Below, in pieces: positions 84 to 34,569 of a DNA stretch of 39,061 nt. The DNA comes from Paludibacteraceae bacterium (GTDB taxonomy: Bacteria; Bacteroidota; Bacteroidia; Bacteroidales; Paludibacteraceae): assembly GCA_017483945.1 (NCBI GenBank), contig JAFUUE010000043.1, positions 1 to 39,061 on the forward strand, read 5' to 3'. Below the pieces are notes generated by a model. That model worked only from the letters and a program-made list of their open reading frames with translations, had not been told where the DNA came from and searched no databases. The stretch's first letter is position 1; each line of letters begins with the position of its first letter. A program made the translations under genes and the position numbers.

Positions 84-160
84 CCGTACCGTTCCCGACG
101 GATCCCCGACGGATCTCCGACGGATCTCCGTACCGGAGCCGACGGTCGGCCGACGGTCGA
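84..160 (-). repeat. 11-bp phased tandem array, seven units (locus A)
   Basis: Seven exactly 11-bp units run without a break: CCGTACCGTTC, CCGACGGATCC, CCGACGGATCT twice, CCGTACCGGAG, CCGACGGTCGG and CCGACGGTCGA. Every unit starts with CCG, so the phase is kept even where the sequence diverges. The array lies beyond the terminator of the minus-strand peptidase gene. The gene it might precede would be left of the window. It is the same kind of structure as the arrays near 6411, 16771, 22159, 29485 and 34504. Confidence 0.85.
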
Positions 161-183
161 GGGGAGCGGGCCGCCCCGGCATA

Positions 184-216
184 AAAAAAGAACTTGCTCC
201 TCGCAAGTTCTTTTTT
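184..216. terminator. Rho-independent terminator after the C1B peptidase gene
   Basis: A perfect 14-bp inverted repeat (184-197 pairs with 203-216) surrounds a 5-nt loop. It has a core of GAACTTGC/GCAAGTTC and an A-run/T-run at its ends, so it could work in both directions. It lies about 20 nt past the stop codon of the minus-strand gene that ends at 239. Confidence 0.9.
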
Positions 217-238
217 ACTCTCTGTCCGGTTGCCCGCC

Positions 239-1474
239 TTATTTAATACCGAGCTTCCGCCGGATATCCTTCGGGATGGCGTCTTTGTGTACCAGGATGT
301 CGTTCGTCTTGTATGCCATGAACGCGCGCGAGATGTACCAGATGCCGTGGTAGTCGGAGCGCACTGTCCCCCACGAGTTCTTCACCATGTAGTACTCCTT
401 GCCGTTCTGGTCTTTGGCGATGCCGAATATCTGCATGCCGTGGTCGTCCGTGTTCTCCCAGTTGTCGAAGGCGTCCTGACGCATCTGCTGTGTCACCTCC
501 ATCTCGGGCAACGGCTTCTTCGTCAGTTCCTCTTTCTTCTCGCTGGCGCTCAGTCCCAGCCAGTGCGCCATGTCGCTGCCCGTCAGGTCGGCGCCCTTGT
601 CTGCGTCGGGCATCACTCCGATACCCTTGCGCGTGAAGCCGTCTTCGCTCACGTCCGCGCCCCAGGCCATCGTGTAGCCCTTCGCCAGCGCGTTGTCGAT
701 GATGGCCATCAGGTCCTCTAACGGCACGTTATACATCCGGTCCATGCGCCAGTTGTCGGGCACCTCCAGCGCAAAACGGCTGTAGAACGGGTGGTGCGTG
801 TAGCTGGTGATGCTCACATAGTCCTCCGCATGCAGACCCAACGACCGTACCCACTCCTGCGGAGTGTAGGTCTTGCCCTCGTACTCGAATGTCTCCGGGC
901 AAACGCCTAAATACTGGTCATAGACCGCCTGCAGACCCTGGCGCCATACGGGGCTCAGACGCTTCAGACCGCTCTTGGTCAGCGCATCTACGTAATGGCG
1001 TGTGATAGCGTCTAACTCGCCGTGGACAGGCAGTGTGTCCGCCTTCGTCCAACCGTAGCGGATACCCGGCATGGCCGCCTGGGGCACCAGACCGTAGTTC
1101 TCCATGCAGTATATCACGTCGTAGGCGCTGCCGCCCGCGGCCATCCGTACGTCCCCGTACATGCGTACACAGTACTCCGCGCGGTCGAGCATCGTCTTAC
1201 TCACTACGTACATCTCGCTCATATCCACCTGCTTGCCCTTGTTCAGGCGCATCACCTCGCTCTCCAGAAAACCGAGCGTGCTGAATGCCCAGCAGGTTCC
1301 GCTGCGGTGCTGGTCCTTGACCGGCGTGATGCCCACGCTGTCCACTGTCGTGAATACGAAGCCCTCGATGCTGTCCGTCGCCGCGCTGTCCGCTGCGGCT
1401 GTCAGGGTGTCCGGGGCTATAGTGTCCGTCCCTAATGAGAACAGACACGCGAATAGAATACTTGTCAGTTGCAT
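239..1474 (-). CDS. C1B-family cysteine peptidase (bleomycin hydrolase/aminopeptidase C type)
   Basis: A papain-fold cysteine peptidase of 411 residues. The catalytic Cys61 lies in QHRSGTCWAFS, with Gln55 as the oxyanion residue. His345 lies in DDHGMQI and Asn366 in KNSWG, giving the C1B triad. The long insertion between Cys and His is typical of bleomycin-hydrolase-type enzymes rather than papain. A short hydrophobic N-terminus followed by an Ala/Thr/Asp-rich linker suggests export to the periplasm, unlike cytoplasmic PepC; this is inferred. It is the last gene of a minus-strand run after prfB, YtxH and a holin-X-like gene (18-nt gap) and is followed by a strong terminator. The substrate cannot be told from the sequence. 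Confidence 0.9.
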   Translation of the reverse strand: MQLTSILFACLFSLGTDTIAPDTLTAAADSAATDSIEGFVFTTVDSVGITPVKDQHRSGTCWAFSTLGFLESEVMRLNKGKQVDMSEMYVVSKTMLDRAEYCVRMYGDVRMAAGGSAYDVIYCMENYGLVPQAAMPGIRYGWTKADTLPVHGELDAITRHYVDALTKSGLKRLSPVWRQGLQAVYDQYLGVCPETFEYEGKTYTPQEWVRSLGLHAEDYVSITSYTHHPFYSRFALEVPDNWRMDRMYNVPLEDLMAIIDNALAKGYTMAWGADVSEDGFTRKGIGVMPDADKGADLTGSDMAHWLGLSASEKKEELTKKPLPEMEVTQQMRQDAFDNWENTDDHGMQIFGIAKDQNGKEYYMVKNSWGTVRSDYHGIWYISRAFMAYKTNDILVHKDAIPKDIRRKLGIK

Positions 1475-1492
1475 AGTTCTCTCTTTTGTTTG

Positions 1493-2056
1493 TTATCTGC
1501 GCTTGCGCAGCACACGCTGCACGAAGGGCAGTATGGTAATGATGAAACGCACTATCTGCGGCAGTCGCCCTATCCACGTGAATAGGGTGGACGGAGTGCT
1601 GAGCTCCTGCTGTATGTTGTTGACGTCCTGACGGATAGCGCCTTCGGAATCCAGACTCTGTTGCTCCAGTTGCTCTTGCTTGACCGGCAGCTTCTCCGGC
1701 GTCATGTCGGGCACCTCCAGTATGATAGCGCACAGCGCTGTCACGAACGGACGTATTATCAGTGCCTTACGGAAGACAATGAGCGTCACGATGAGCAGCA
1801 CATACACGCCCCCGACGATGCAATAGCCGAGTGCCGGGTGCATATAGGCTCCCAGCCAGCCCGCTAACGCGATGCCGAAGAACACCAACCCGACCAGCAC
1901 CAGCAGACCCACGCACAGACTCATCACGACCAGACCCAGCACACGGGCCACCTTGTCTGCCACAATCAACTTAGCCTGCTCTCCGCGCAGACTAAGCCAT
2001 TGTTGCACGTCGTTCAGCAGTCGCGAATACTGCTGTTCGGTTCGTACGCTGTCCAT
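1493..2056 (-). CDS. Holin-X-like (phage holin family) membrane protein
   Basis: A 187-residue protein with a soluble N-terminus (about 1-35) and two closely spaced hydrophobic helices (about 38-70 and 75-95). The C-terminal half is charged and ends in a second hydrophobic patch and RKRR. This matches the widespread 'phage holin family/Holin-X' envelope proteins in Bacteroidota, which despite the name are usually chromosomal genes of unknown role. The start is 6 nt downstream of the YtxH stop, so the two are probably co-translated. YtxH/holin-X pairs are a recurrent arrangement, and a shared role in envelope stress is a guess. No phage genes are nearby. Confidence 0.75.
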   Translation of the reverse strand: MDSVRTEQQYSRLLNDVQQWLSLRGEQAKLIVADKVARVLGLVVMSLCVGLLVLVGLVFFGIALAGWLGAYMHPALGYCIVGGVYVLLIVTLIVFRKALIIRPFVTALCAIILEVPDMTPEKLPVKQEQLEQQSLDSEGAIRQDVNNIQQELSTPSTLFTWIGRLPQIVRFIITILPFVQRVLRKRR

Positions 2057-2062
2057 GGAGCA

Positions 2063-2341: not shown

Positions 2342-2378
2342 AATCGTTTGGCTTTTAAGTTATATGATTATCAGGATT

Positions 2379-2392: not shown

Positions 2393-2407
2393 GCTCCTGT
2401 CTCTCTC

Positions 2408-5842: not shown

Positions 5843-6388
5843 CTACTTATTTTGTTTTAGGGTATAGATGGCGTCGAGGTTACGGCATAGGCCGTCGAGG
5901 TCGAGTCCGTAGCCGATGCAGAAGTGCTTGGGCACCTCGAAGCCGATATAGTCCGGGCGGGCATCTTCGCGTTGCAGGGCGTCGGGCTTAAAGAGCAGGG
6001 AGGCCACGCGTACGGAGGTGGCGCCGTTCTCTTCGAGCTTGTGCTTGAAGTAGTGCATGGTGTTACCAGTGTCCACAATGTCTTCCACGACAATGACATC
6101 GCGGTGATAGACATCTTCGCTCAGTCCGATGAGTTCGGTGATTTGTCCGGTGGTGGCGGTGCCTTCGTAGGAGCGCAGGCGTACGAAGGTGATGCGGCAG
6201 TCGAGGCTGACCTGTCGCATGAGGTCTGCGGCGAAGACGAACGCGCCGTTGAGGACGCAGATGAAGAGCGGCTGCCGCCCTTCGTAGTCGTGGTTGATGC
6301 GTTGTGCCAAGTGTGTGACGGCCTCTTGTATTTGTGCGGGTGTGAATCTTTCCTCGAAAGTCATCCCCTGATGTGTGATGGTTCGCAT
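5843..6388 (-). CDS. hpt: Hypoxanthine phosphoribosyltransferase
   Basis: Purine salvage enzyme that joins hypoxanthine or guanine to PRPP to give IMP or GMP. The 181-residue length is normal. The PRPP-binding loop lies at about residues 99-111 (VVEDIVDTGNTM). RLRSYEGT (about 70-77) is the flexible catalytic loop, and KPDALQ and the DYIGFEVP stretch match the base-binding end. It is the last gene of the long minus-strand operon, separated from rsgA by 103 nt that contain an 11-bp tandem array ending 22 nt before the ATG. The other end faces the ftsE terminator. Confidence 0.95.
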   Translation of the reverse strand: MRTITHQGMTFEERFTPAQIQEAVTHLAQRINHDYEGRQPLFICVLNGAFVFAADLMRQVSLDCRITFVRLRSYEGTATTGQITELIGLSEDVYHRDVIVVEDIVDTGNTMHYFKHKLEENGATSVRVASLLFKPDALQREDARPDYIGFEVPKHFCIGYGLDLDGLCRNLDAIYTLKQNK

Positions 6389-6410
6389 AATATGGTGTTG
6401 TTTTGTTAGC

Positions 6411-6487
6411 GTCAGGTAACGGTCAGGTAACGGTCAGGTAACGGACAATGTCTAGGATTGGTACGGGGTTGGTTCGGGTTGGGGTTG
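6411..6487 (-). repeat. 11-bp phased tandem array, seven units (locus B)
   Basis: Read in the coding direction (minus strand), seven 11-mers fill the rsgA-hpt gap: CAACCCCAACC, CGAACCAACCC, CGTACCAATCC, TAGACATTGTC and CGTTACCTGAC three times. The perfect copies are nearest hpt and end 22 nt before its ATG. The degenerate copies run up to a few bases from the rsgA stop codon. Confidence 0.88.
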
Positions 6488-6491
6488 GGGG

Positions 6492-16046: not shown

Positions 16047-16745
16047 TTATTGGGCGGCGGGTGTGTCGTCGGAGAAGGTGTGTTTCTTCCGGAGGCGCCA
16101 TTGCCACCATGGTTGCGTGGTCCATCGTTGGACGATGAGGCATACGACGGCGACGGAGAAGAGAGCAACGAGCGTACCTGCGAGGACATCGAGCGTGAAG
16201 TGCATGCTCAGGTAGATACGGCTGTATCCTCCGAGCGCAGCGAGGAGTGCGCAGCAGACGCCGAGGGCGGAGGCGAGGGCGGGTGATTTGGGAAGTGAGT
16301 CGGTGAGGATGAGGGCAATGATGAAATAGAAGACGAAGAAAGCGGAGGTATGTCCGGAGGGGAAGGAGAAGTGGTAGGCATAGCGGACGCCATCGACGAG
16401 GTTGAGTTGGACGTCCGGCATGTTCAGCGCGAACCAGCGGAGCGGTCTGGGTGCGTTGACGATGTGCTTGATGAGTTGTGTGAGGATAGAGGAGACGGTC
16501 AGTGTGGCAGCGGCGGTGACGGCCCATCCGGCCTTGAAGAGGATGAGGGATAGACATAGGACATAGGGCGCCCATGTGATGAAGTGGGTATAGCGGGCAA
16601 AGAAGACGTCTGCCCAAGGTGTGTGGCAGGTGTTGAGCAGCAGATGGAGTTCGCCCTTGGGGTAGATAAGCAGGAGTGCGGTCAGTACGCAGGCGAAGAG
16701 CAGAGCCGCGATGAAGAAGGCTGCATTGCGCGTGATGAGTTTCAT
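16047..16745 (-). CDS. PAP2-family phosphatase
   Basis: A 232-residue integral membrane phosphatase with about six helices. The three motifs of the PAP2/acid phosphatase superfamily are present: KHIVNAPRP (about residue 94), FPSGHTS (about 128) and SRIYLSMHFTLD (about 175), with the catalytic His in the last. Such enzymes remove phosphate from lipids such as undecaprenyl diphosphate, phosphatidylglycerol phosphate or lipid A; the substrate is not visible. It follows the T9SS gene cluster across a 234-nt gap with an 11-bp array and a structured element, and may be the end of that transcript. Confidence 0.9.
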   Translation of the reverse strand: MKLITRNAAFFIAALLFACVLTALLLIYPKGELHLLLNTCHTPWADVFFARYTHFITWAPYVLCLSLILFKAGWAVTAAATLTVSSILTQLIKHIVNAPRPLRWFALNMPDVQLNLVDGVRYAYHFSFPSGHTSAFFVFYFIIALILTDSLPKSPALASALGVCCALLAALGGYSRIYLSMHFTLDVLAGTLVALFSVAVVCLIVQRWTTQPWWQWRLRKKHTFSDDTPAAQ

Positions 16746-16770
16746 GATTGTACAAGTGTGGTGGTAGGGT

Positions 16771-16836
16771 TATCTATCGTATATCTATCGTGTATCTATC
16801 GTATATCTATCGTGTTTGATACGGGTTCGGGACTGA
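16771..16836 (-). repeat. 11-bp phased tandem array, six units (locus C)
   Basis: In coding direction (minus strand) the units are TCAGTCCCGAA, CCCGTATCAAA, CACGATAGATA, TACGATAGATA, CACGATAGATA and TACGATAGATA. The nearly perfect units end 25 nt before the ATG of the PAP2 gene. The same unit occurs at 34504-34569, 18 kb away and on the other strand, also just before a start codon. Confidence 0.9.
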
Positions 16837-16843
16837 TGCGGTA

Positions 16844-16954
16844 TGCGCCTGTAGGCGCAATCGCGGGCGAGCCAATAAGGAGTTCTATGTCTGCTTCGCA
16901 GACTCGCGCGGCGCACTTACTCCTTCGAATGTTCACGAACATTCTCGGTGCGCC
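16844..16954 (-). ncRNA. Structured multi-hairpin intergenic element, possible non-coding RNA
   Basis: A compact GC-rich element between the last T9SS gene and the PAP2 gene. Helices on either strand are TGCGCC/GGCGCA (16844-16849 with 16854-16859), GTCTGC/GCAGAC (16889-16894 with 16898-16903), and GAATGTT/AACATTC (16927-16933 with 16938-16944). GGCGCAC/GTGCGCC (16910-16916 with 16948-16954) encloses the last hairpin. AAGGAGT/ACTCCTT (16877-16883 with 16919-16925) is an alternative long-range helix that would compete with the enclosing stem. No coding signal is convincing. It may be a dispersed repeat or a regulatory RNA; the family is unknown to me. Confidence 0.5.
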
Positions 16955-16979
16955 TTAATCGCTTCACGTCCCAGGTGGG

Positions 16980-19364
16980 TCAGGGGCCGACGATGATGCG
17001 GAATGTGCGCGTGGGGAGGGCGGGTGCGGAGACGGAGAGCAGGTAGATGCCGGGCGTGGCGGGCAGGGCGATTTCGCCTCCGGGTCGGGGGATGTCGGTG
17101 GTGGACAGGAGGATGCCGGTCGGAGTGTACCAACGGGCTTGTGAGGGGGCGGATGTGTTGATGAAGATGGTTGTACCGCAGGTGCCGTAGGAGGGTACGA
17201 GAGCGGCGTCCTCGGGCGCAAAGAGCGGCAGCGAGGGTCCGTCGGTGAAGCGTGTGGGGCATGTGCAGACGGTGCGTTCGTCGGGCGAGTCGGCGTTGAG
17301 GACAAAGCAAGCGTGGTAGGTGTCGTCCGGTGCGGATAGGCCCTGCATATTAAGGACGGTGTTGGTGGCGCCGTAGATGGGGGCATCGTTGCGATACCAC
17401 TGCACGTCGGAGACGGTGCGTCCGTCGAGGGCCTCGGCAGAGAGTCCGAGCACGTCGGTGTATCGCTGGAGGAGGACATGCTCAGAGGGGTAACGGAGGG
17501 AGAAGAGAAGGGTGGTGTCAAGGGAGCCGCACTCGGCGAAGAGTGTGACGCGGATGCCGTAGTCTTCGCCTCCAGTGGCGGCAGGGGGTATGGACAGACG
17601 GAGGGCGTTGTCCTCGAGCGTGAGGTCATCGTCGGAGAAGCCTGCGCGCAGAGCCAAGTCGTTGAATGCGAGGAGGAAGCTGTCGCGTGTGAAGGGTGTA
17701 TGGCTGCCGTCGGTGAAGAAGAGGCGTACGGCCCGCCGGTCGGTCTGCTCGGGGCAGGGGTCGAGCGTGACGGAGTCGATATGGAGGCGGAAGCGGCCGA
17801 TGGAGACGGGGTATCGGAGGGTGTCGCAGTGGAGGTCCGAGCTGCAGTCGGTGGGCAGTGTGCTCCATATATAGGCCGTGGCGTGGTAGGTGCCGGGGGC
17901 GGTATAGGTATGGGGGTTGTGTAGCGATGTGGTGGTGACGGGGGCGGTGCCGTCTCCGGCGTCCCATGTGATAGAGCGGACGGGGTAGTTCGTCCGGCAG
18001 AGGATGTCGGTCGGTCCGGCGTGGCACTGCATCTGCGGTGGCGCGGGTGTGGGTATGCCATTGACGAGCATGGCGCGTGTGCGTGGCTCAGGCTGCATGC
18101 CCGCGGAGAAGGCGTAGGACAGGGCGGGCGAGTGGCCATAGACGGTGGCGCAGAAAGTGCTATCGGCAGAGATGTGGAAAGCGCCGACGCTGTCGAGGTT
18201 CATTCGTGCGAAGGACCACTCGGACGTGCCGTAGATAGGAGCGAAGGCGCGGTAGATGAGGCTGTCATTGCATCGGACGGAGCGCACATGGCGCGTGTGT
18301 GTGACGATGTTGACATAGTGGTGGCAGCCGTCGAAGAAGGTGGGTACGGTGAGTTCAGGTACGGCGCTATAGAGGGGGGCGATGCGTGTGAGAGCGGGTG
18401 CTCCGGTGGGGTTGAGCGGGCGGTCGTAGTCTCCGCTGAGAGTGTACTGCCAGACGGCGACGGGGCATGAGGCGACGAGGTAGCATGCTTCGGTGCGGAA
18501 ATCGGCGCCTTCGTCGCCGAACTCGGCCCGCCAGGTGCGTGTGGGGTTGGTCCGGAAGTCGAAGACATGGACGGTGTCGCCGTTGAGGAGGAGGGCGGTA
18601 GAGTCGTAGAGGGCCTGTACGAGGAGAGAGTCGCGGTAGCGTTCGGCGGTAGCGACAGCCACATATTCGCGTCCCCAGATGTCCGTAGGTACGGCCTGCT
18701 CGAGGAAGATATTGGCATGTGTGGCAGTGCGGGGGCGTCGGACGAGGTCAGAGGCGACGAAGAGTGCGAAGGGTGTGCCGTCGTCGGTGAGGATGTCGGC
18801 ATTGAAGGGCGCGTGTGTGGGGTCGGGCATGTACCAAACCTGTCCGCGGCGGAGGGGCGGTGTGACTTGGTCGGGGGCGTTACCGTAGCGGATGACGGTG
18901 TTGTCGTAGAGGGCGAGTAGCGTGTGGCTGCCGGTGGGGAGTGCGCGGTAGTGGTTGCCGAGCGAGGAGACTGGGAGGACGGCGGTGGCCTCGTGGGCAG
19001 TGGCGTCCTCGGAGCGGAGCGCGGCGTAGAGAGAGACGGGTGCGGAGGATGTCACATAGAGCGCGCGCGTCATGGCAGAGTCGGGTCGGAGGAGTGAGCA
19101 GACACCCGCGGGGACGGAGACATGCCCGGTGGTGCGGGCGGTGAGGGTGGTGGCGAAGCGTGCGTCGGCGGAGCGGATAGAGACAGTGACGGGGAGTGTG
19201 TCGGCGGGCACGACCGTGAGCGTGAGCGAGGGGTAGTGGCAGCAGGTGTCGGGGTAGGGGAATGTAACCCAAAACTCCGAACCCACTGTGTTTTGGGCTC
19301 GGAGATTGGTTAGGAAAGCGGCGAGTAATGCCGTCAAGAGTACTATGTTAGGTGTACGGGTCAA
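16980..19364 (-). CDS. T9SS-secreted IgGFc-binding-like/PKD protein (paralog 3)
   Basis: A 794-residue exported protein. A signal peptide (to about residue 23, ending NLRAQ) is followed by GSEFWVTFPY, then an IgGFc-binding-protein-like beta domain with the shared QAVPTDIWGR motif near residue 225. A PKD-like domain (ITWDAGDG, about 468) and an Ig-like part with QRYTDVLGL and VQWYRND follow. The C-terminus (about 730-794, ending FRIIVGP) looks like a type A T9SS sorting domain. Start: no ATG precedes the signal peptide. The only fitting start is TTG (19362-19364), directly after the TAG of paralog 2, so translation is probably coupled. It is very GC-rich by eye. Confidence 0.83.
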   Translation of the reverse strand: MTRTPNIVLLTALLAAFLTNLRAQNTVGSEFWVTFPYPDTCCHYPSLTLTVVPADTLPVTVSIRSADARFATTLTARTTGHVSVPAGVCSLLRPDSAMTRALYVTSSAPVSLYAALRSEDATAHEATAVLPVSSLGNHYRALPTGSHTLLALYDNTVIRYGNAPDQVTPPLRRGQVWYMPDPTHAPFNADILTDDGTPFALFVASDLVRRPRTATHANIFLEQAVPTDIWGREYVAVATAERYRDSLLVQALYDSTALLLNGDTVHVFDFRTNPTRTWRAEFGDEGADFRTEACYLVASCPVAVWQYTLSGDYDRPLNPTGAPALTRIAPLYSAVPELTVPTFFDGCHHYVNIVTHTRHVRSVRCNDSLIYRAFAPIYGTSEWSFARMNLDSVGAFHISADSTFCATVYGHSPALSYAFSAGMQPEPRTRAMLVNGIPTPAPPQMQCHAGPTDILCRTNYPVRSITWDAGDGTAPVTTTSLHNPHTYTAPGTYHATAYIWSTLPTDCSSDLHCDTLRYPVSIGRFRLHIDSVTLDPCPEQTDRRAVRLFFTDGSHTPFTRDSFLLAFNDLALRAGFSDDDLTLEDNALRLSIPPAATGGEDYGIRVTLFAECGSLDTTLLFSLRYPSEHVLLQRYTDVLGLSAEALDGRTVSDVQWYRNDAPIYGATNTVLNMQGLSAPDDTYHACFVLNADSPDERTVCTCPTRFTDGPSLPLFAPEDAALVPSYGTCGTTIFINTSAPSQARWYTPTGILLSTTDIPRPGGEIALPATPGIYLLSVSAPALPTRTFRIIVGP

Positions 19365-22130
19365 CTATTGTACATGATTGCCATAAATGTCATATTCGTT
19401 GTCCCCGACGATGATGCGCATGTGTTGGTTGCGAATCACTTTCTGCGCAGCGGGCTGCGGTGCGAGTGTTGTCGCGGACTCGGGAATGGTGTAGGGGCAG
19501 GACATGATAGTGGTGCCGTCGGCGCGTGTGAGTAGTACGCTATAGACATCGCCCGGTGTGAAGGGGTCGGTGGTGTGGTAGATAGATGTTGTTGCGTCCT
19601 GAATGCGTTCACCGTTGAGATACCACTGGTAGTCAGTGAAGACATATCCTCCGTTGTATGCGGGTTTATAGACAGCGAGGACGTTGCCGAACTTGAACTT
19701 GAAGACCGAGGCGGGGTAGTATATCTGGAAGTTGATGGGCAAGCGGAGTGTGTCTCCCTTGTTGGCATCGACGACCATGATATAGGCGGTGTAGTTGTCG
19801 GGGGGGAGTCCATTGCGCGGCATGCTGAAGTAGTCTTTGCTGCGGATGAGTCCGACGCTGTCGCCGGCAGCGGTGAGCAGCCATGCGTCTCCCATGTCTC
19901 CCTTGGTGACCTTATAGGGGATGTCCAAGTATGCGGAGGTGTTGCACGAGTCCACGGGGGCGGTGACGGACATGACGAGTGTGGTGATGATGTGTATGTT
20001 ATAGTGGACGACGCTGTCGCAGCCATCGTCGTTAGTCAGTGTGAATACGGCATCAGGGTTGCTGGAGGTGTAGGTGGTTTTTAGATGTGTGAGTGTGTCT
20101 TTATAGAGTGTAAGTATGTCCTCGGCGATGGTGTCCACGTAGGTGTCGGGTGACTTGGCACCGACGAAGATGTCGTAGATGACGACGGAGTCGCAGTCGT
20201 AGGTGACGGGGTCGGAGACAAACTCGCCCGGGGTGTCATATACTTTGCCTTGGAACTCCTCACCTTGGCATAATGCTACGTTCGTTCTACGACTAATCGG
20301 TCGTTGTATGCGGAAAGAGAAGTGGAGTGTATCGGCTGGGAGTCCTTCATCGGAGCAGGCTTTGCGTCCGTGCACCATAGCGACGAGGTCGTACCATCCG
20401 GGAGAGTCGTAGGTGTGAGTAACTTGGGCGGGGCCATTCTGTAGCGTGATACCATCGCCGAAATCCCAATCCACGAACTCAATAATGTCTTGTCCTACTT
20501 GGGCATTGAAGTTGAGAGTAGAATCAAGGCAGAAGGGTTGCTCTTCGCGGTAGCCGTCTGTGAAGTAGGTTCCATCGATGTCGATGGCTCGTTTGACTGT
20601 AGCAGAACCGACAGAGTAGGCGTAGGATTCATTTGTTCCATGTCCATATACGTGGGCGATAAAGCCCTCCTCGGAATTGGTCAAATGGAAAACGCTTTCA
20701 TAAATGTCTTTTCCGGTAACGGGGTCGCTGATAGAGTTTATTTCATCATCAGTAAGTTCTTTAATAACGTAGGAGTAGGCAGGGTTATTCGGAACAGGGA
20801 CAAATGTGAGAGGGATATTTGGGCGGAGATTGGATGATAGTTTAGTGGAGTCTATGGCAGCAGTCGGGCATATAATATTGATGTTATGTTTAGTAGTTTT
20901 GTCTGTATGACAGGTTCCGAAAGTAATGGAGCGTATGCTTTGCTGAATCGGGGCTATCCATGTGACAGAGGGGTCTCCCTTTTTGTCAGCCATTGTGGAG
21001 TTATCTCCTTTGTATGAACTACCTGTGTCGTAGTTATATACAGCACAAGGGCAGGATGTTTCGAGGTAGAGAGCGTCTGTTTGGAAAAGTTGGTTAGCGT
21101 CTAACTTATGTAATAATTTGTTTGCGTTTTTCGTTGCAGGATTATTGAGGTGGAGCTCAATGTAGTAGGTCTCGCCTCGATCGATGTAAGCCGTTTGTCT
21201 TCCAATCTTGATTTCTGTGCCGTTTTCCATAGCGGTAATACCGAAGATATTACCATCCTTATTCATAGAACGGGTGAGGACGAACTGGGTTCCCCAGTAG
21301 TCAACGGGCATAGCCTGTTCGTATAGACAATCACGTGCACCAATTCCGGCAGGGATGCGGGTGCATGAATTACCTAAAAAGACGGCTATCTTCTTATTGT
21401 TTTGGGCCAGGATATGTGTGCCGTTTAGTAGTTGCCCGTCTTTCCCTATGAGATAATAGACTTGGCCACGATTGAGAGTAACGGTGTATGGTGTATTTGC
21501 CGGTTTATTATCTTGTGTGGCAGAAGTGGGAGTTATTTGGACCTGTGTATTATCTTCCGTGGCGAGGATCGTGGCCATTGATAGAGCCGGTGTCGCGAAG
21601 CTAACGCCGTCATCATTCATTTCCGGCCAGATGTCTTGGAAGATGTATTCGCTTTGCAGGGTGGCAGTCGGCAGGATATTGGTAGCATCCATGTCGAAAT
21701 CTACACGCAGAATGCTAAATACAGAGATGTCTTCTGTGCTGGACACATGTACACCATAATCCTTGATTTGTCCAGCATACGTAGGGACATCGGATGTCTT
21801 GCGCAGTTGTGCAGGGTACCAATTAGCAATCGGTATGCCTTTGAATTCATACCATTCGTTATCTGCAGTGGTTGTATAGGTTATTACACTTGTGCCTGCT
21901 GTAACCGTGATAACTGTTCCTTTGGTCGGTGCTGATACTGCAATATATGGTTCCGCTGTTTTGTAATACGAATCACCTTCGTCTCCATCAGGTGGTGTGA
22001 CGGCGAAGGTGAGTGCGACCCAGAATTCCCGTCCCTCGGTGGATGCTTGTGCATGGGCACGTTGGGGGATGAGGGTGGTGAGCACAAGGAAGGAGAGTGC
22101 CAGAAGGGTTAGTTTAGATGTTGTTTTCAT
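19365..22130 (-). CDS. T9SS-secreted IgGFc-binding-like/PKD protein (paralog 2)
   Basis: A 921-residue exported protein with a signal peptide ending ...RAHAQ, then REFWVALTFA at the mature start. An IgGFc-binding-like domain follows, with QAMPVDYWGT near residue 275 and ETSCPCAVYNYD. A PKD domain with DWDFGDG lies near 550, then further Ig-like parts with YQWYLNGE. The C-terminus is a short T9SS-type tail (KVIRNQHMRIIVGDNEYDI...), unlike the longer sorting domains of its two paralogs but like that of the endonuclease ending at 27260. The part for residues 1-545 is clearly more AT-rich by eye than the rest. Such proteins are probably adhesive surface proteins. Confidence 0.83.
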   Translation of the reverse strand: MKTTSKLTLLALSFLVLTTLIPQRAHAQASTEGREFWVALTFAVTPPDGDEGDSYYKTAEPYIAVSAPTKGTVITVTAGTSVITYTTTADNEWYEFKGIPIANWYPAQLRKTSDVPTYAGQIKDYGVHVSSTEDISVFSILRVDFDMDATNILPTATLQSEYIFQDIWPEMNDDGVSFATPALSMATILATEDNTQVQITPTSATQDNKPANTPYTVTLNRGQVYYLIGKDGQLLNGTHILAQNNKKIAVFLGNSCTRIPAGIGARDCLYEQAMPVDYWGTQFVLTRSMNKDGNIFGITAMENGTEIKIGRQTAYIDRGETYYIELHLNNPATKNANKLLHKLDANQLFQTDALYLETSCPCAVYNYDTGSSYKGDNSTMADKKGDPSVTWIAPIQQSIRSITFGTCHTDKTTKHNINIICPTAAIDSTKLSSNLRPNIPLTFVPVPNNPAYSYVIKELTDDEINSISDPVTGKDIYESVFHLTNSEEGFIAHVYGHGTNESYAYSVGSATVKRAIDIDGTYFTDGYREEQPFCLDSTLNFNAQVGQDIIEFVDWDFGDGITLQNGPAQVTHTYDSPGWYDLVAMVHGRKACSDEGLPADTLHFSFRIQRPISRRTNVALCQGEEFQGKVYDTPGEFVSDPVTYDCDSVVIYDIFVGAKSPDTYVDTIAEDILTLYKDTLTHLKTTYTSSNPDAVFTLTNDDGCDSVVHYNIHIITTLVMSVTAPVDSCNTSAYLDIPYKVTKGDMGDAWLLTAAGDSVGLIRSKDYFSMPRNGLPPDNYTAYIMVVDANKGDTLRLPINFQIYYPASVFKFKFGNVLAVYKPAYNGGYVFTDYQWYLNGERIQDATTSIYHTTDPFTPGDVYSVLLTRADGTTIMSCPYTIPESATTLAPQPAAQKVIRNQHMRIIVGDNEYDIYGNHVQ

Positions 22131-22158
22131 ACAGTATTTATTCGATGAAAGTAGTGTT

Positions 22159-22213
22159 CGTTTACGTCTCGTTTACGTCTCGTTGTCGTGTTTGGTACGG
22201 GATTGGTACGGGT
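22159..22213 (-). repeat. 11-bp phased tandem array, five units (locus D)
   Basis: In coding direction the units are ACCCGTACCAA, TCCCGTACCAA, ACACGACAACG, AGACGTAAACG and AGACGTAAACG. The two identical units end 28 nt before the ATG of paralog 2. The upstream units share CGTACCAA with locus B and almost match CGTATCAA of locus C. Confidence 0.88.
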
Positions 22214-22236
22214 TCGACAGGGGAGCGTCACGGTTT

Positions 22237-24468: not shown

Positions 24469-27141
24469 TTAATAGACGATGAATTTGAAGTTACGTACTT
24501 GTTTGCCCGTAGTGACGCGCAGGATGAACAATCCCGCTTCGCCGGGTGCGCTGATGATGGCTCCTCCGTCGGGTAGGTTGTCGGTGGTGAGGAGGGTGCC
24601 GTCCATGCGGAGCCATTCGGCGGTGGCGGTGCCGGAGGTCAGTCCGGCCTTCTTATAGTCGGCATTGACGAAGACGTTGCCTCCCTTAGGCGCGGAGGTC
24701 TGTACGGGTGTGCCTCCCACGACATCGCCGAAGGTATAGCCGTCGGTATTGTTTTTGAAGCGTTTGGGGCAGGAGCATGTGCTCAGTTCGTCGGGCGTGC
24801 CCTTGTTGATGATATAGCAGACGTAGTACTCGCCCTCGGTGTCGGGTTGTCCGTGGAGGTTGAGTGTGGAGTTGTTCTCGCCTTCGAGGAGGACGCTATC
24901 GCGGTACCAGCGGAAGTCGGAGTAGGTCTTGTCCGGGTCGGAGAAATAGGTGTTGTTGAGTCCGAGTACGTCGGTGTAGCGTTGCACCATGACATCTTCG
25001 GCATCGAAGCTGACCATGAATCGGAGTACGGTGTCCACATCGATGCACTTGTCAGTGATGGCGAGGTGTATGCCGTAGGGCTTGTTGGCCTCGACATCGG
25101 CGGGGATGGCGATGCGGAAGTAGTTGTCCGTCTGGTTGATGACGAGGTCGCGGTTGCGGAATCCTGCGGCGATGGTGGCCGCGTCGAACTCGAGTGTAGT
25201 GTTGTCGCCCTCGAGGTTGATGCCGGCTTCGTTGTTATAGAAGACGCGGAAGAACATCTCCTCGTCATCTTTCTTACAGGGGATAGACTCCATGTCCGTT
25301 ATCTCAAACTTGTAGTCACCGATGATGACTTTGAGGGGGATAGAGTCGATGAGGGATTGTCCGACGCATACGTTGGAGGATGTACGTTCGATGAGGACGT
25401 AGGCATTGTAGGTGCCGGCGATGGGGTAGTGGTGTACGATGGAGTCGGTGTTGGAGTTGTCAGTCTGTCCGTCGCCGAAGCCCCATGTGATGCTCTCGTA
25501 GTCGTAGTTGAGGTGGCATACGAAGGTGACTTTCTCTTTCTCGCAGATGGGTTCGCTCTCGATGTCCGGGGAGTAGGTGACGCCGTTGATGGTGACGCCT
25601 TGGGTGAGGACCTTGGTGGAGCCTCCGGCGGAGTAGCCGTATGACTCTTTGTCGCCATAGCCATAGACATGTGCGATGAAGCCGCTGTCAGCCTTGAGCG
25701 TATGGGAGGCGTAAGAGATATTCTTCCGTGCGTACCAATAGAGGCTGTCGCTGCCATCAACGGGGTGGAAATCGGCGCTGATGTCCTGTCCGTCAAGGCG
25801 CATGGTGCGGACGTTCGCCGAGTCGGTTACGACGTTGAAGTAGTGCGTGTTGCTGCTGCCATAGGTGGCAAAGGTGATTTCGTTGATGATTTGTTCGATA
25901 GGGTTGACCCACAGCATGGCGGGGTCTCCATTGGCGGATGCGTCATACTGGTTGCTGACCATGAACAGGTGTACGGCGGCGGGGCAACTTGTCTCGATGA
26001 AGCAGCTTTGTCCGATGACAAGCGGGTCGGGGAGCGTGACATTTTTCTTGTCTTTGTCCTTGCTGGTGAAGCTTGTTCCGGGGTCGCCTATTTCGAAGGT
26101 GAAGGTGCGTGAGGGGTTGTTTGCGAAATCGAACGTATAGACGGAGTCACCGTTGATTCGCACCTCGGTGTTGTCGTTGGTAGCCATGACGCGTATGATG
26201 TCGCGGTGGCGTGTCATGGAGGCCGTGATGGCGAACGTGTTTCCCCAATAGGCGGTAGGCATGGCTTGTGAGAAGAGGTGGTCTCGGTCGCGTATGCCGT
26301 TGGGGAGGTTGGTGTGCGGTGCGCCTTGGAAGACGGCAATCTTCTTGCTGTCCCGAGCCTTCACCAGGGTGCCGCTCAGGTCGGCTGCAGCTCCGCTACT
26401 ATTGCCGGTCCAGATGTAATAGACCTGTCCTTTCATCAGTACGGGTGTGGTACATTTGACGCCCGGAGTGAAATTCAGGTAGAGTGAGTCGTTGGCTGTC
26501 AGTACGTAGCCGTTGTCCTTTTTCGTCTTGACATCGTTGAACTTCTTTGTCATGACGGTGGGGTAGTAGTCCACGGTGACGTTATCTTCGGCCGCAATGA
26601 TGGCGAAGTGGGTACCTTGGGGCTTGTTCTCATGGTCAGAAGGCGGATAGGACTGTATCAGGTACTCGCTGTGCAGTGAGGCCGTGGGCAGCACATTGGT
26701 GGCATCGAAGGATTTCTCTCTGTGGTTGCTGGCGAAGAGGGAGATGGGGGCCGTGGAGGTGACGTGTATGGCACAGGTGTCCACCACATCGGGGTAGAAG
26801 GTGTAGCAAGTCACTGATGCTTTCTTGTTGTCGGTGCGGGTACGGGCTTGTGCATCGGCTCGTCCTGTGTAGAACGAGACTTCCTCGATGTCTCCGGCAT
26901 CCAGATGCGTGCTTTTGCTTTCTCCAGTATAGGGGTTGAGGAATGTCACGTCGCACTCATAGCGTGATGATACGGTCAGGGCTAATGTGACAGCTTTGTC
27001 GCTATTATCACTGACATCGTTCTGGTCAGCGCGGAGGAAGGTAACCCAGAAGTCTTTGCCCTCGGTGGTTTGTGCAGAGAGGGATGCGGGGAGGAGCGCC
27101 AGCAGTATGAGCGCGGCTCCGACTAACAGTTGCTTTTTCAT
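24469..27141 (-). CDS. T9SS-secreted IgGFc-binding-like/PKD protein (paralog 1)
   Basis: An exported protein of 890 residues (from 27141) with a signal peptide ending PASLSAQ and then GKDFWVTFLRA. The IgGFc-binding-like domain carries QAMPTAYWGN near residue 295 and FIETSCPAAVHLF. The PKD domain shows TWGFGDG near 554. An Ig-like part with VQRYTDVLGLNN and FRWYRD follows, and the last 80 residues form a type A T9SS sorting domain ending NFKFIVY. The ATG at 27141 fits the signal peptide. ATGs at 27156 and 27180 are also in frame, and the -7 box at 27182-27189 makes 27180 unlikely. This is the first gene of the surface operon. Confidence 0.85.
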   Translation of the reverse strand: MKKQLLVGAALILLALLPASLSAQTTEGKDFWVTFLRADQNDVSDNSDKAVTLALTVSSRYECDVTFLNPYTGESKSTHLDAGDIEEVSFYTGRADAQARTRTDNKKASVTCYTFYPDVVDTCAIHVTSTAPISLFASNHREKSFDATNVLPTASLHSEYLIQSYPPSDHENKPQGTHFAIIAAEDNVTVDYYPTVMTKKFNDVKTKKDNGYVLTANDSLYLNFTPGVKCTTPVLMKGQVYYIWTGNSSGAAADLSGTLVKARDSKKIAVFQGAPHTNLPNGIRDRDHLFSQAMPTAYWGNTFAITASMTRHRDIIRVMATNDNTEVRINGDSVYTFDFANNPSRTFTFEIGDPGTSFTSKDKDKKNVTLPDPLVIGQSCFIETSCPAAVHLFMVSNQYDASANGDPAMLWVNPIEQIINEITFATYGSSNTHYFNVVTDSANVRTMRLDGQDISADFHPVDGSDSLYWYARKNISYASHTLKADSGFIAHVYGYGDKESYGYSAGGSTKVLTQGVTINGVTYSPDIESEPICEKEKVTFVCHLNYDYESITWGFGDGQTDNSNTDSIVHHYPIAGTYNAYVLIERTSSNVCVGQSLIDSIPLKVIIGDYKFEITDMESIPCKKDDEEMFFRVFYNNEAGINLEGDNTTLEFDAATIAAGFRNRDLVINQTDNYFRIAIPADVEANKPYGIHLAITDKCIDVDTVLRFMVSFDAEDVMVQRYTDVLGLNNTYFSDPDKTYSDFRWYRDSVLLEGENNSTLNLHGQPDTEGEYYVCYIINKGTPDELSTCSCPKRFKNNTDGYTFGDVVGGTPVQTSAPKGGNVFVNADYKKAGLTSGTATAEWLRMDGTLLTTDNLPDGGAIISAPGEAGLFILRVTTGKQVRNFKFIVY

Positions 27142-27181
27142 GTTATTGTTGGTCATATGTATTTGCATAATTTTACGCATG

Positions 27182-28742: not shown

Positions 28743-29453
28743 TTAAGCGCGTTTGCGGACGATATTGTCAATCAGGTTGATAAGCACGTACCAGACGATG
28801 CATGCGGCACCGGCGGCCAGTGCGAAGGGGAGCATGCGGAAGCGGATGGCTTCGATGAGGCAGCATGCGATGAGCACGAGGCAGCCGATGAGGAAGAGGT
28901 AGCGTGTGCTGTTGTTACGCCACGTGAAGTCGTGGAACTTGAGCGAGAAAAAGGGTATCTCGCTGATGAGCAGCCAGCAACTGAGGAGGCTGAGGGCGAG
29001 TATCACCCAGGGCATCCAGACGGGGCGGGTGATGGCATAGGGCATGCAGCATAAGGAGCACCAGAAGAGTGCGTTAGCCGGTGTGGCGAGACCGATGAAA
29101 GAGGTGGTCTGTCGCTCGTCGATGTTGAACTTGGCGAGTCGCAGGGCAGAGAAGGCCGCCATGAGCAGTGCGATGAGGCACCACCACCCGAGGACGGGGC
29201 GCAGGTAGCAGGTGAGGACCATGGCGGGTGCGAGGCCGAAGGTGATGTCGTCGGCGAGTGAGTCGAGTTGTATGCCAAGTGGTCCGCTGACGCCCAGTGC
29301 GCGGGCTGTCAGGCCGTCGAAGAAGTCGAAGAACGCACCGGCGCATACGAGTGCGAAGGCCCAGTCAAAGGCGTTCTGGGTGGCCATGAAGACAGCGAGT
29401 GCTCCGCAGAGGAGGTTGCACGAGGTGATGATGTTAGGAATATGACGTTTCAT
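28743..29453 (-). CDS. pssA: CDP-diacylglycerol-serine O-phosphatidyltransferase
   Basis: Membrane enzyme that makes phosphatidylserine, the precursor of phosphatidylethanolamine. The CDP-alcohol phosphotransferase motif reads DFFDGLTARALG...GIQLDSLADD (about residues 42-67), matching DG(x)2AR(x)8G(x)3D(x)3D. About seven hydrophobic helices and 236 residues are normal. It follows the MFS gene in the same transcript. Confidence 0.95.
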   Translation of the reverse strand: MKRHIPNIITSCNLLCGALAVFMATQNAFDWAFALVCAGAFFDFFDGLTARALGVSGPLGIQLDSLADDITFGLAPAMVLTCYLRPVLGWWCLIALLMAAFSALRLAKFNIDERQTTSFIGLATPANALFWCSLCCMPYAITRPVWMPWVILALSLLSCWLLISEIPFFSLKFHDFTWRNNSTRYLFLIGCLVLIACCLIEAIRFRMLPFALAAGAACIVWYVLINLIDNIVRKRA

Positions 29454-29478: not shown

Positions 29479-29490
29479 GGGTAATTACCC
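29479..29490. repeat. GGGTAATTACCC palindrome before pssA
   Basis: A perfect 12-bp palindrome lies 26 nt before the pssA start codon and 2 nt past the stop codon of the MFS gene. It could be a regulator site; no T-run supports a terminator. Confidence 0.5.
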
Positions 29491-29528
29491 GGTCAGGTCT
29501 GTTCCAGGTCTGTTCCAGGTCCGTTAGC
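29485..29528 (-). repeat. 11-bp phased tandem array running into the MFS gene (locus E)
   Basis: In coding direction GCTAACGGACC, TGGAACAGACC, TGGAACAGACC and the degenerate TGACCGGGTAA follow each other. The array lies across the stop codon (29493-29495) of the MFS transporter, so it encodes the last residues (NGPGTDLEQT). Because 11 is not a multiple of 3, gain or loss of one unit would change the C-terminus. Confidence 0.8.
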
Positions 29529-30854
29529 CGCCTTGGTTTTGAGCCGTTTACGGAGGAGGATTGTGACGGCGATGCTGAGTGCGCAGCAGGCGATGACGAG
29601 CCAGAAGAAGCTCGTATAGCCCAGTGCCTCCTGGATATAGCCGGCGGCCATGCCGGGGAGCATCATGCCCAGCGCCATGAAGCCGGTGCATAGGGCATAA
29701 TGCGACGTCTGGCGTTCGCCCCGTGAGAAGTGCATGAGGTAGAGCATGTAGGCCGTGAAGCCAAAGCCGTAGCCGAACTGCTCAAAGGTGATGGCGGCGG
29801 CGACCCAGCCGGTCTGTGCCGGTTGTGCAAGGCTCATCCATAGATAGACCGCGTCGGGGAGTGTGATGGCGAGCACCATGGGTATCAGCGAGCGGCGCAG
29901 ACCGTACCGGGAGGCGTAGAACCCGCCGAGCAGACCTCCTGCCGTCAGTCCCGCCACGCCCAGCACACCATACAGCCACCCCACATCGGCGGTGCTCAAT
30001 CCCAGTCCGCCATGCTCCACCGACCCCACGAAGAACGGGTTCAGCATCTTCACCAGAAAAGCCTCCGGCAGGCGGTATAAGAGCATGAAACACAGGGCTA
30101 ACAGGATACCGTCCTTGCGGAAGAAGGAGACGAATGTCTCGCCGAAATCCCGCAGGATGTCGGTGGCGCGGCGTTGTTCGGTGGCGGCGGGTTGCTCTTT
30201 TCGCGGCAGTGTCAGCAGGTGCCAGACGGTCAGTGCAGCGAACAAGAGCGAGGCGCACAGCAACGTGCGCTGCCATGCTGCGGGAATATCCCCTGTCTGC
30301 TCCTCCCAACGGCCTGCCAGCCAGATGAGTACGCCCTGGCCGAAGATGGAAGAGAGGCGGTAGAACAGGCTGCGGACACCTACGTAGAACGACTGGGAGC
30401 GGGTGTCCAGCGCCAGCATGTAGTAGCCGTCCGCTGCGATGTCGTGCGTCGCACCGGCAAAAGCGCTCAACCAGAACAAGATAAGCATCCCGCGGAAGAG
30501 CCCGATGCCGGTTGCTCCGGCGCCAATCGTCTCTGCCGGCGGGTGGGGGAGCGTCAGGGTCATGCCTACAAAAGCCGCCGTGAGCAGCACCTGCATCGCC
30601 AGCACCCACCAGCGTTTTGTGCGGATGATGTCCACGAAGGGACTCCACAAGGGTTTGATGACCCACGGCAGGTATAAGAGGCTGGTATAGAGCGCCATCA
30701 CGCCGTTAGGCACCCCCATGCGCGTAAGCATCATGACACTCACGTTGTTGACGATGAAATACGGCACCCCCTCTGCGAAATAGAGGGTCGGCACCCATAG
30801 CCATGCACGTGAGTCTATGTGATTGGGTAGTGTATGTGTCTCGTTGTCTGTCAT
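29493..30854 (-). CDS. MFS transporter of the PAT/AmpG type
   Basis: A 453-residue protein with about 12 hydrophobic helices. The first part (YFAEGVPYFIVNNVSVMMLTRMGV and the loop PLWSPFVDIIRTKRWWV) and AGATHDIAADGYYML fit the peptide/acetyl-CoA (PAT) branch that includes AmpG, the muropeptide importer. A role in cell-wall recycling is a reasonable guess, not a proof. A second sign of the family is the central loop after about residue 225. The last 10 residues are encoded by an 11-bp array and look unrelated to the family. It starts 14 nt after hpf. Confidence 0.8.
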   Translation of the reverse strand: MTDNETHTLPNHIDSRAWLWVPTLYFAEGVPYFIVNNVSVMMLTRMGVPNGVMALYTSLLYLPWVIKPLWSPFVDIIRTKRWWVLAMQVLLTAAFVGMTLTLPHPPAETIGAGATGIGLFRGMLILFWLSAFAGATHDIAADGYYMLALDTRSQSFYVGVRSLFYRLSSIFGQGVLIWLAGRWEEQTGDIPAAWQRTLLCASLLFAALTVWHLLTLPRKEQPAATEQRRATDILRDFGETFVSFFRKDGILLALCFMLLYRLPEAFLVKMLNPFFVGSVEHGGLGLSTADVGWLYGVLGVAGLTAGGLLGGFYASRYGLRRSLIPMVLAITLPDAVYLWMSLAQPAQTGWVAAAITFEQFGYGFGFTAYMLYLMHFSRGERQTSHYALCTGFMALGMMLPGMAAGYIQEALGYTSFFWLVIACCALSIAVTILLRKRLKTKAANGPGTDLEQT

Positions 30855-32826: not shown

Positions 32827-32853
32827 ATTCTTGAATCTTTAGTCTTCCAATCC

Positions 32854-33489: not shown

Positions 33490-33508
33490 GGTCTTTCTTA
33501 TCTGGCGA

Positions 33509-33540
33509 CAAAGGTACAAAAAAAAATGCATATATGCAAG
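33509..33540 (-). promoter_or_regulatory. Bacteroidota-type promoter of the dNK operon
   Basis: On the minus strand CTTG (33537-33540), 20 bp, then TACCTTTG (33509-33516). The start is predicted near 33502, so the leader before ATG 33489 would be about 13 nt. Confidence 0.83.
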
Positions 33541-33628
33541 ACTCGGATGCATCTTTTTTTGCGGGCATAGCGTTTTTTAAGATTTGATTGCCTTTTGTAT
33601 AGAAAATGCGGTCTTTTTGGATATGTCG

Positions 33629-33660
33629 CTTGCGATGTTAGGAAATATATTGTACCTTTG
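33629..33660 (+). promoter_or_regulatory. Bacteroidota-type promoter of the ZIP gene
   Basis: CTTG (33629-33632), exactly 20 bp, then TACCTTTG (33653-33660) on the plus strand. The predicted start near 33667 gives a 40-nt leader before the ATG at 33707 and excludes the in-frame ATGs at 33584 and 33623. The promoters of this gene and the dNK operon face away from each other, about 90 bp apart. Confidence 0.83.
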
Positions 33661-33706
33661 TTTGAAAACGATATATTTTAGGCAAAATCACTCGAATATT
33701 CCCGTT

Positions 33707-34489
33707 ATGAACTACACGATTCTTATTGGTCTTCTTATCCCGCTTTTGGGCACGATGCTCGGCTCGGCGTTTGTCTTCTTCATGAAAAAGGAGATGCCCG
33801 ACCGCCTGCAGAAAGCCCTGCTGGGATTTGCATCGGGGGTGATGGTGGCGGCGAGCATCTGGTCGCTGCTCATTCCCGCTATCGACGCAGAAGCCGGCAA
33901 AGGCGCGTGGGCTGTACTGCCTGCCTCGGTCGGTTTTCTGCTCGGTATAGTTTTTCTGCTGGCTATCGACGAACTGACACCGCACTTGCACATTGGTTCT
34001 GAAAACCCCGAAGGACCCCGCAGCAAACTCTCCCGCACAGCCATGCTTGCCCTCGCGGTGACCATCCATAATCTGCCCGAAGGAATGGCGGTGGGTGTGG
34101 TGCTTGCCGGTGCCGGAGAAGGTGTAGCCGGCATCTCCATGAGTGCCGCGATAGCCGTCTCGCTCGGTATAGCCATCCAGAACATCCCCGAAGGGGCTAT
34201 CATCTCCATGCCCATGCGTGCGGCAGGCAACAGCCGCCGGCGCTCGTTCCTCATCGGCTCGCTCTCCGGCGTCGTCGAACCCATCGGCGGACTGCTCGTC
34301 ATTCTCCTTGCCGCATGGCTCACGCCTGTCTTGCCCTACCTGCTCGCCTTCGCCGCAGGCGCAATGATGTACGTGGTCGTCGAGGAACTGATCCCCGAAG
34401 CCTCGCAAGGCACGCACTCCAACCTCTCCACCATCGGCTTCGCTATTGGCTTTGTGCTGATGATGGTGATGGATGTGGTGTTGGGATAA
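33707..34489 (+). CDS. zupT: ZIP-family divalent metal transporter
   Basis: A 260-residue membrane protein of about eight helices. The two metal-site helices are diagnostic: HNLPEGMAVGV (about residue 124) and IQNIPEGAIISMPM (about 161). A metal-binding loop with HLHIG lies between helices 3 and 4. It probably imports zinc or other divalent metal ions into the cytoplasm. The start at 33707 is supported by the promoter position. It lies 99 nt before the HD gene, with an 11-bp array in the gap. Confidence 0.93.
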   Translation: MNYTILIGLLIPLLGTMLGSAFVFFMKKEMPDRLQKALLGFASGVMVAASIWSLLIPAIDAEAGKGAWAVLPASVGFLLGIVFLLAIDELTPHLHIGSENPEGPRSKLSRTAMLALAVTIHNLPEGMAVGVVLAGAGEGVAGISMSAAIAVSLGIAIQNIPEGAIISMPMRAAGNSRRRSFLIGSLSGVVEPIGGLLVILLAAWLTPVLPYLLAFAAGAMMYVVVEELIPEASQGTHSNLSTIGFAIGFVLMMVMDVVLG

Positions 34490-34503
34490 ACGACTCTGAA
34501 TCC

Positions 34504-34569
34504 GCTATCAAACACGATAGATACACGATAGATATACGATAGATACACGATAGATACACGATAGATAAC
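34504..34569 (+). repeat. 11-bp phased tandem array, six units (locus F)
   Basis: GCTATCAAACA, CGATAGATACA, CGATAGATATA, CGATAGATACA, CGATAGATACA and CGATAGATAAC in a row, ending 19 nt before the ATG of the HD gene. The unit and the leading ATCAAACA match locus C (16771-16836), which also precedes a start codon. Confidence 0.9.

Follow-up and report, generated by a model that had tools for sequence, protein, structure and literature searches.

What are the short tandem arrays that recur, with an exact step of 11 bp, between the genes of a 39,061-nt stretch of Paludibacteraceae bacterium DNA (contig JAFUUE010000043.1 of assembly GCA_017483945.1)? This stretch, hereafter the window, makes up all of contig C52 in a genome bin of 2.0 Mb in 93 contigs that is about 89% complete; a PyrH comparison placed its nearest named relatives mostly among rumen and gut Bacteroidales bins, several of them Paludibacteraceae. 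A first-pass annotation had reported six such arrays, and the 11-bp step was present in all six stretches (Table 1). The unit ACGATAGATAY (family G), found at 16771 and 34504, provided a lead to an uncharacterised family of small basic proteins. We propose tentatively, with a little less than even confidence, that the arrays are clustered binding sites for members of this family. Below, C, L and G numbers label contigs, loci and genomes, respectively, and the bin that contains the window is called the source genome.

Self-matches were counted per lag in 640,101 bp of the source genome (the window and 40 stretches). There were 76 segments at lag 11 and 20 at lag 10, whereas lags 5-9, 12 and 13 each had between 0 and 8, and one order-3 Markov copy of the sample yielded zero segments at every lag from 5 to 24. 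Over 999,000 bp, half of the genome, the counts were 132 at lag 11, 32 at lag 10 and 18 at lag 7, with six or fewer at each of lags 6, 8, 9, 12 and 13. The check suggested in the first-pass annotation, an excess at lag 11 elsewhere in the genome, was thereby borne out in the half covered. Like long simple-sequence repeats (LSSRs), the arrays are tandem units of 5-11 nt that occur above chance. At a slightly looser threshold, 83 of 88 lag-11 arrays were intergenic, though 85% of the 640-kb sample was called coding (gene calls came from a purpose-made simple model), and 11-mers in congeners and named relatives were intergenic in 21 of 21 cases. Tandem arrays of 7 bp were numerous in the congeners and named relatives (L139-L158, L059-L088), where some of 8 bp also occurred; unlike the 11-bp arrays, 45 of 91 of these 7-bp arrays lay inside called genes.

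Downstream of family G arrays, one same small protein was encoded in 7 of 14 other genomes, and a distant homologue in G010 lies behind a different 11-bp array. With a profile built from seven sequences, 58 out of 61 genomes searched within the genus (source genome included) proved to have members, with 1-19 matches each. Protein profile scores served to select 31 members, in most cases the top scorer of its genome (30 genomes); an 11-bp array lay within 320 nt upstream in 28 of them, versus 8 of 59 long open reading frames of the same loci; three array-less homologues were scored as misses, and the array of L356, at the far edge of the 320 nt, was counted. As a background rate, an 11-bp array preceded 10 of 287 genes sampled from 20 congeners; for 30 named relatives the figure was 14 of 460, and for the source genome it was 49 of 502. 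Fisher's test of 28/31 against 10/287 gave 1.7e-28 (5e-24 for 23/26 after dropping five members), treating members as independent, and the effective number is smaller because many of them are orthologues. When six members were excluded because their genomes had supplied either a profile seed or one of the seven genes found first, 22 of 25 were still linked. The member-linked units varied in sequence and stayed at 11 bp (ACGATAGATAY, ACGGAGGATAY, ACGAATTATTG, ACGTAAACGAS, CGATAACGACA and CGCACTATTGC), and two of the 28 linked arrays, both ACGATAGATAY (L352 and L367), were antisense.

Iterating the profile over the loci in hand added 12 more distant members (E below 1e-9), seven of them with an upstream 11-bp array (two share one) and one with a 10-bp array. 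For the source genome, a second, wider profile that contains its own members returned five matches with E <= 4e-20 and one at 0.009. Four of these six loci had an upstream 10- or 11-bp array (C8, four family I units; C2, an 11-bp array; C36 and C24, 10-bp arrays) versus 62 of 502 genes (p = 0.003, lag test). C80 is a miss in this count, having been scored there on a second small gene; its scored gene has an 11-bp unit in 2.5 copies 137-163 nt upstream (Tandem Repeats Finder). The 10-bp unit at C24 (about TTCAAACAAC) resembles stand-alone 10-bp arrays of the same genome, a hint that arrays of the two periods form a single class. At L072 15755-17750 (minus strand), four family members or fragments adjoin one another, with one ACCACATCGCG array before the first.

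All 35 family sequences (near-duplicates included) were 101-140 amino acids long with an isoelectric point (pI) of 9.4-11.2, compared with a median pI of 6.1, and 32% above 9, for 68 other congener proteins of 80-180 amino acids. Pfam, NCBIfam and PHROGs returned nothing above cut-off for the members tested, a PDB sequence search with the small protein gave a best match at E 4.4, and no relative of it was found on viral contigs. Different profiles were used for the genus-wide and order-wide protein searches; the second had 0 matches in 148 other genomes drawn from the order, congeners being outside that search. The family has so far been seen in the genus only, a restriction that is provisional given the scope of that search.

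The linked genes also share a layout. A TAnnTTTG box, the -7 element of Bacteroidetes promoters, stood within 75 nt before the array in 16 of the 28 gene-linked cases, and 17-22 nt before it in 10, while 127 of 2,320 background windows carried one. The order promoter, array, gene is thus seen in about half of the linked cases. Because the box lies 17-22 nt upstream in those 10 cases, the array would be inside the transcript, starting about a dozen nucleotides into it.

The arrays fall into families. Contrary to the earlier description of a different unit at each locus, a single unit occurs at both 16771 and 34504, and for 62 of 94 arrays an identical 11-bp unit was found at another locus, compared with 2, 0, 0, 0 and 0 in five composition shuffles; the accompanying remark that a CG is kept at one phase was right for most families. 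One-mismatch linkage gave about a dozen unit clusters with two or more arrays. The main families, besides G, are A (TCAGGTAACGG), D (YCAGSTCTGTT), E (TCAGGTTCGGG), F (CCAGSWTCGTT), B (CCGACGGATCY), C (CGACCGTCGGY), I (CAATCACGCGA) and N (AGTAGGTKATT). Family A arrays are flush with unit boundaries at both ends, and their flanks are mostly unique. The 19 family A arrays with at least two units comprised three units in 12 cases, two in 5, four in 1 and five in 1, and single units were no commoner than chance (7, versus 13.6 for shuffled units). A two-unit family A pattern (<=2 mismatches) matched 94 times in the source genome, overlapping places of one array being counted separately, and 0 times in 294 other genomes of the order; because that set includes a single listed congener, this hardly tests absence from congeners.

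Family G is widespread in the genus. It matched in 56 of 101 genomes (source genome included), up to 202 times in one, whereas the reversed pattern gave 0-5 matches per genome, which 34 genomes exceed with six or more. Its arrays contain from 3 (the threshold) to 14 units. In G032 (L327-L342), family G arrays have 8-14 units and mostly conserved caps (left about TCGGGTTAAAC, right about ACAGGGCCATTATCGGG), with unique flanks beyond. The composite of families B and C across a spacer, as at window 94-161, was found again at other loci of the source genome; it matched, mainly through the C part, in 7 of the 100 other genomes searched within the genus, G364 alone having nine such places. Composites of the CCGACGG type kept the 11-bp register across their gaps in 4 of 5 cases. 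A common register across the separate arrays of an intergenic region was considered as a general feature and rejected, the CAGG families keeping it in only 1 of 9.

These CAGG families form a dyad element. A scan of the 999 kb found 78 CAGG-family runs, including 13 divergent neighbours within 150 bp, and the reversed sequence gave zero runs in the dyad scan. Spacing was exactly 37 bp in 10 of the 13 pairs; the others had 48 (37 plus one unit), 27 and 15 bp. The 37-bp rule was first seen as 8 of 10 pairs, and only two of five later-stretch pairs are an independent check of it, since the remaining three later-stretch 37-bp pairs were already in the initial set. Across the ten dyad elements, arm identity was 83% and 87% and spacer identity 47% (26% when shuffled), with spacer length unchanged and an inverted core conserved (A at 8, CTGA at 14-17, CAGG at 22-25 and T at 30). 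By eye, the two arms belong to different families in all ten elements, and therefore a perfect hairpin is impossible. An RNA hairpin from the paired arms was rejected: eight elements were folded, with z from -3.7 to +1.1 and no consistent structure, and four of the eight folded no better than shuffles. With sequence conserved in the arms and length in the spacer, the dyad has the features that would be expected of a site read in phase by a protein.

Placement relative to genes differed between families. Array positions in the 640 kb were co-directional in 52 cases, divergent in 13 and convergent in 7; a further 5 arrays fell inside called genes and 11 close to the end of a stretch. The earlier statement that arrays end 19-42 nt before an ATG holds in the window, because gaps are short there for most families; over 640 kb it does not, the distance from array to downstream start being 3 to 951 nt for co-directional arrays, with convergent and divergent ones besides. 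The CAGG families were opposite to flanking genes in 18 cases and in the same direction in 13 (p = 0.47). Four of the six family G arrays of the source genome were same-sense, 8-47 nt before an open frame; of the other two, one is cut by a stretch end and one is degenerate, with no ATG within 90 nt. In other genomes, co-directional family G arrays were same-sense in 20 cases versus 3 opposite, or 19 versus 3 as distinct loci (p = 0.0009; G032 supplies 7 of the 19 same-sense and all three opposite loci), and a further 3 were convergent, 3 divergent and 2 unplaced. Placement relative to start codons, which the first-pass annotation expected to be non-random, was therefore largely random for stand-alone arrays of the source genome and not for the ACGATAGATAY family (19 versus 3).

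How might these features work together? Under the binding-site reading, each 11-bp (or 10-bp) unit, about one helical turn, would be one site of a small basic protein, and three or more units in phase would permit cooperative binding. An array in the leader, often right after the promoter, would allow a family gene to regulate itself, and stand-alone arrays, numbering a few hundred by extrapolation, would serve as targets for this protein or its relatives; unit sequence would diverge between members while unit length was kept. The working mode may be an unusual form of repressor with tandem operators. Linkage of an array to the gene of a basic protein, as expected of an autoregulated nucleic-acid-binding protein with a tandem operator, was found here, and the ratio of 28/31 to 10/287 genes lends indirect support to the earlier suggestion that a protein binds each turn in phase. 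From these sequence patterns we infer that the protein may bind the array as DNA rather than RNA, that unit and protein may co-diverge, and that stand-alone arrays may serve as targets. It is conceivable, if rather doubtful, that this is a lineage-specific recognition system without a described counterpart, in which each fast-diversifying member reads its own 10- or 11-bp tandem code, in its leader and at many intergenic sites, with protein and code co-diverging between species as a chromosome address system or a selfish protein-array pair. If the proteins do bind the arrays, there would be many natural protein-code pairs in which specificity has changed and architecture is fixed, so that recognition rules might be deduced from sequence and put to direct test; some of the intergenic DNA in these gut bacteria would be accounted for, and there would be a handle on a protein family without a known domain.

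Several observations weigh against this interpretation. Stand-alone arrays have no overall orientation bias, unlike ordinary operators, and for the commonest families of the source genome (A, D, E, F, B and C) no cognate gene was found. Linkage is weaker in the distant members (7/12, one of the unlinked ones having only 22 nt of upstream sequence), and the 28/31 figure rests mainly on the best-scoring member per genome, which is part of all matches. Twelve of the 28 linked arrays have no promoter box within 75 nt, and arrays of the source genome overall show no clear excess of boxes (on either side in 6 of 132, one being the gene-linked array of C8, versus 214 of 12,287 windows per strand). 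The 3-14 units of family G arrays are also expected from tandem-repeat turnover.

Among the rivals, a mobile or selfish pair is the strongest: gene plus array would be autonomous, the basic protein would move or copy arrays, and stand-alone arrays would be non-autonomous, comparable to repetitive extragenic palindromic (REP) sequences and REP-associated tyrosine transposases (RAYTs). It would fit a gene family in multiple copies (1-19 per genome with a match), the dispersal of one-family arrays with sharp ends and mostly unique flanks, the 94 pattern matches of family A here against 0 in 294 other genomes (one listed congener), the presence or absence of families between congeners, and the composite elements of G032 with their mostly conserved caps. 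We nevertheless consider it somewhat unlikely: no transposase or recombinase family was found in the tested proteins at Pfam, NCBIfam and PHROGs cut-offs, visual inspection of family A ends showed no target duplication, no viral relative was found, and about 100-170 amino acids is small for a transposase. Reverse transcription was also considered as the spreading agent and rejected, the source genome (about 89% complete) having no PF00078 match. Alternatively, the protein could bind repeated units in the mRNA leader and control translation, DNA not being the target. Eleven nucleotides make one turn of A-form RNA, ACGATAGATAY is sense in 19 of 22 distinct co-directional loci, and the promoter box 17-22 nt before 10 of 28 linked arrays indirectly supports the RNA leader that the first-pass annotation had offered as an alternative; stand-alone arrays, however, occur in all orientations, convergent regions included, and the paired-arm elements that fold no better than shuffles (4/8; z from -3.7 to +1.1) argue against it as well, so that regulation through RNA alone seems unlikely to us.

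Neutral LSSRs that arise by slippage and spread by recombination, the gene link being hitch-hiking, are about as unlikely an explanation. Scattered bacteria are known to carry repeats of 5-11 nt (Mrazek et al. 2007, as summarised in PMC4679880), and the congeners have 7- and 8-bp arrays too. Simple slippage, which had been suggested earlier, is a poor fit because copy numbers are mostly constant integers, ends are flush (with unique flanks) and dyad arms keep their 37-bp spacing even though the spacer drifts. Identical units at many loci and the 28/31 gene linkage likewise speak against neutrality, as does the intergenic position of 11-mers (21/21 in congeners and relatives, 83/88 in the source genome) versus 45/91 7-mers in coding sequence. 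Finally, OmpR/PhoB-type response regulators bind 10-11-bp direct repeats, and operators of this type would resemble the arrays in period and head-to-tail layout. This alternative is nearly refuted because the PF00486 gene count is too low: the source genome (about 89% complete) has one match, against about a dozen unit clusters and 132 arrays in half of it.

Table 1. Repeat features of the window, with the array stretches of the first-pass annotation and their contents.
Feature	Positions	Strand	Units and context	First-pass stretch and contents
Family B array	94-132	+	three units CCGACGGATC[CT]	84-160: three CCGACGGATCY units, then spacer, then two CGACGGTCGGC units
Family C array	136-161	+	two units CGACGGTCGGC; 11-bp register with family B kept across spacer	84-160
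Family A array	6408-6448	-	three flush units CCGTTACCTGA (sense); upstream of phosphoribosyltransferase gene 5843-6388 (PF00156)	6411-6487: three TCAGGTAACGG plus two GGTACGG-type units
GGTACGG-type units	6458-6480	-	two, degenerate; upstream of family A	6411-6487
Family G array	16767-16818	-	four ACGATAGATAY (sense); 24 nt before ATG of PAP2 gene 16047-16745 (PF01569)	16771-16836: four ACGATAGATAY units, remainder degenerate
GC-rich palindromic repeat	16843-16984	-
Family K array	22158-22189	-	about 2.5 units ACGAGACGTAA (sense); upstream of IgGFc-binding-domain gene 19365-22130 (PF17517)	22159-22213: about 2.5 ACGAGACGTAA units plus about two GGTACGG-type units
GGTACGG-type units	22187-22216	-	about two; upstream of family K	22159-22213
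Family D array	29491-29528	-	three flush AACRGACCTGR (sense); upstream of CDP-alcohol phosphatidyltransferase gene 28743-29453 (PF01066)	29485-29528: three CAGGTCTGTTC
Family G array	34508-34572	+	five ACGATAGATAY; 20 nt before ATG of HD-domain gene 34589-35209 (PF01966)	34504-34569: five ACGATAGATAY

Within the window, the term intergenic, applied earlier to all six arrays, does not hold for 29485-29528, which shares sequence with the 3' end of the open frame lying upstream (29493-30854). The array at 22158-22189 is of the ACGTAAACGAG type, as in the leaders of the small-protein genes L373 and L375. Several loci (window 6404-6490; L051 9456-9569; L166 13801-13900) have a module close to ACAATGTCTAGGATTGGTACGG beside family A or GGTACGG units, and this module is also found upstream of the small-protein gene of C28. 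Three large window genes (16980-19364, 19365-22130 and 24469-27180) have products that look alike by eye, and the one examined has an IgGFc-binding domain. Rfam reported two tRNAs at gathering threshold in the window and, near the 16771 array, one match at chance level only. A GC-rich palindromic dispersed repeat with the head CCTGGGACG, also present in the window (Table 1), occurs 61 times in the 640 kb, between genes, with a longer form of about 140 bp. The only Y1_Tnp (RAYT-like) match of the genome (L222 1-1800) is flanked by inverted copies of it. A REP/RAYT-like system is therefore also present in the source genome, separate from the 11-bp arrays; the idea that this element, which adjoins the 16771 array, carries the arrays was rejected, an array being at its head in 5 of 61 copies (by eye).

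We know of no described family that pairs dispersed 10- or 11-bp arrays with small basic proteins having such arrays before their genes, and a literature search, with thin coverage of subscription journals and preprints, showed no report of 11-bp arrays in Bacteroidales among the papers listed. REPs are short imperfect palindromes that flank a Y1/HUH (RAYT) transposase gene. The arrays resemble this system in being dispersed short intergenic sequences with a gene flanked by them, and differ in being direct repeats rather than palindromes and in that no Y1 domain above cut-off was found in those linked proteins that were tested. Pho boxes and OmpR-type operators are 11- or 10-bp direct repeats bound head to tail; here, by contrast, the source genome has only one match to such a regulator. 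Descriptively, the arrays are LSSRs, a phenomenon already known: Mrazek et al. (2007), as summarised in PMC4679880, reported tandem units of 5-11 nt above chance in scattered bacterial genomes. The likeness lies in above-chance tandem units of up to 11 nt; compared with what that summary conveys, the present arrays differ in the recurrence of a unit at many loci, mostly fixed copy number, flush ends, 37-bp dyads and a protein link. The TAACTGA heptamers that occur in Beggiatoaceae, cyanobacteria and some Bacteroidetes, mostly immediately before gene starts, are likewise short direct repeats proposed as regulator sites (MacGregor 2015, PMC4679880). As portrayed in the available part of that source, they have one 7-bp unit and no linked small-protein family, whereas here there are 11- and 10-bp periods, many units and linked basic proteins. 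BrickBuilt of Porphyromonas gingivalis (PMC4596501) is similarly intergenic, dispersed, built of tandem repeats and from Bacteroidales; it differs in its 23-bp unit within a miniature inverted-repeat transposable element (MITE)/minisatellite with small inverted ends, and the available part of its description names no linked protein. For comparison with MITEs, 10 of the 13 divergent pairs of the present arrays have inverted arms spaced 37 bp apart, and no target duplication was visible where family A arrays end (by eye). Set beside these systems, the pair of array and small protein is one that we rate as categorically new.

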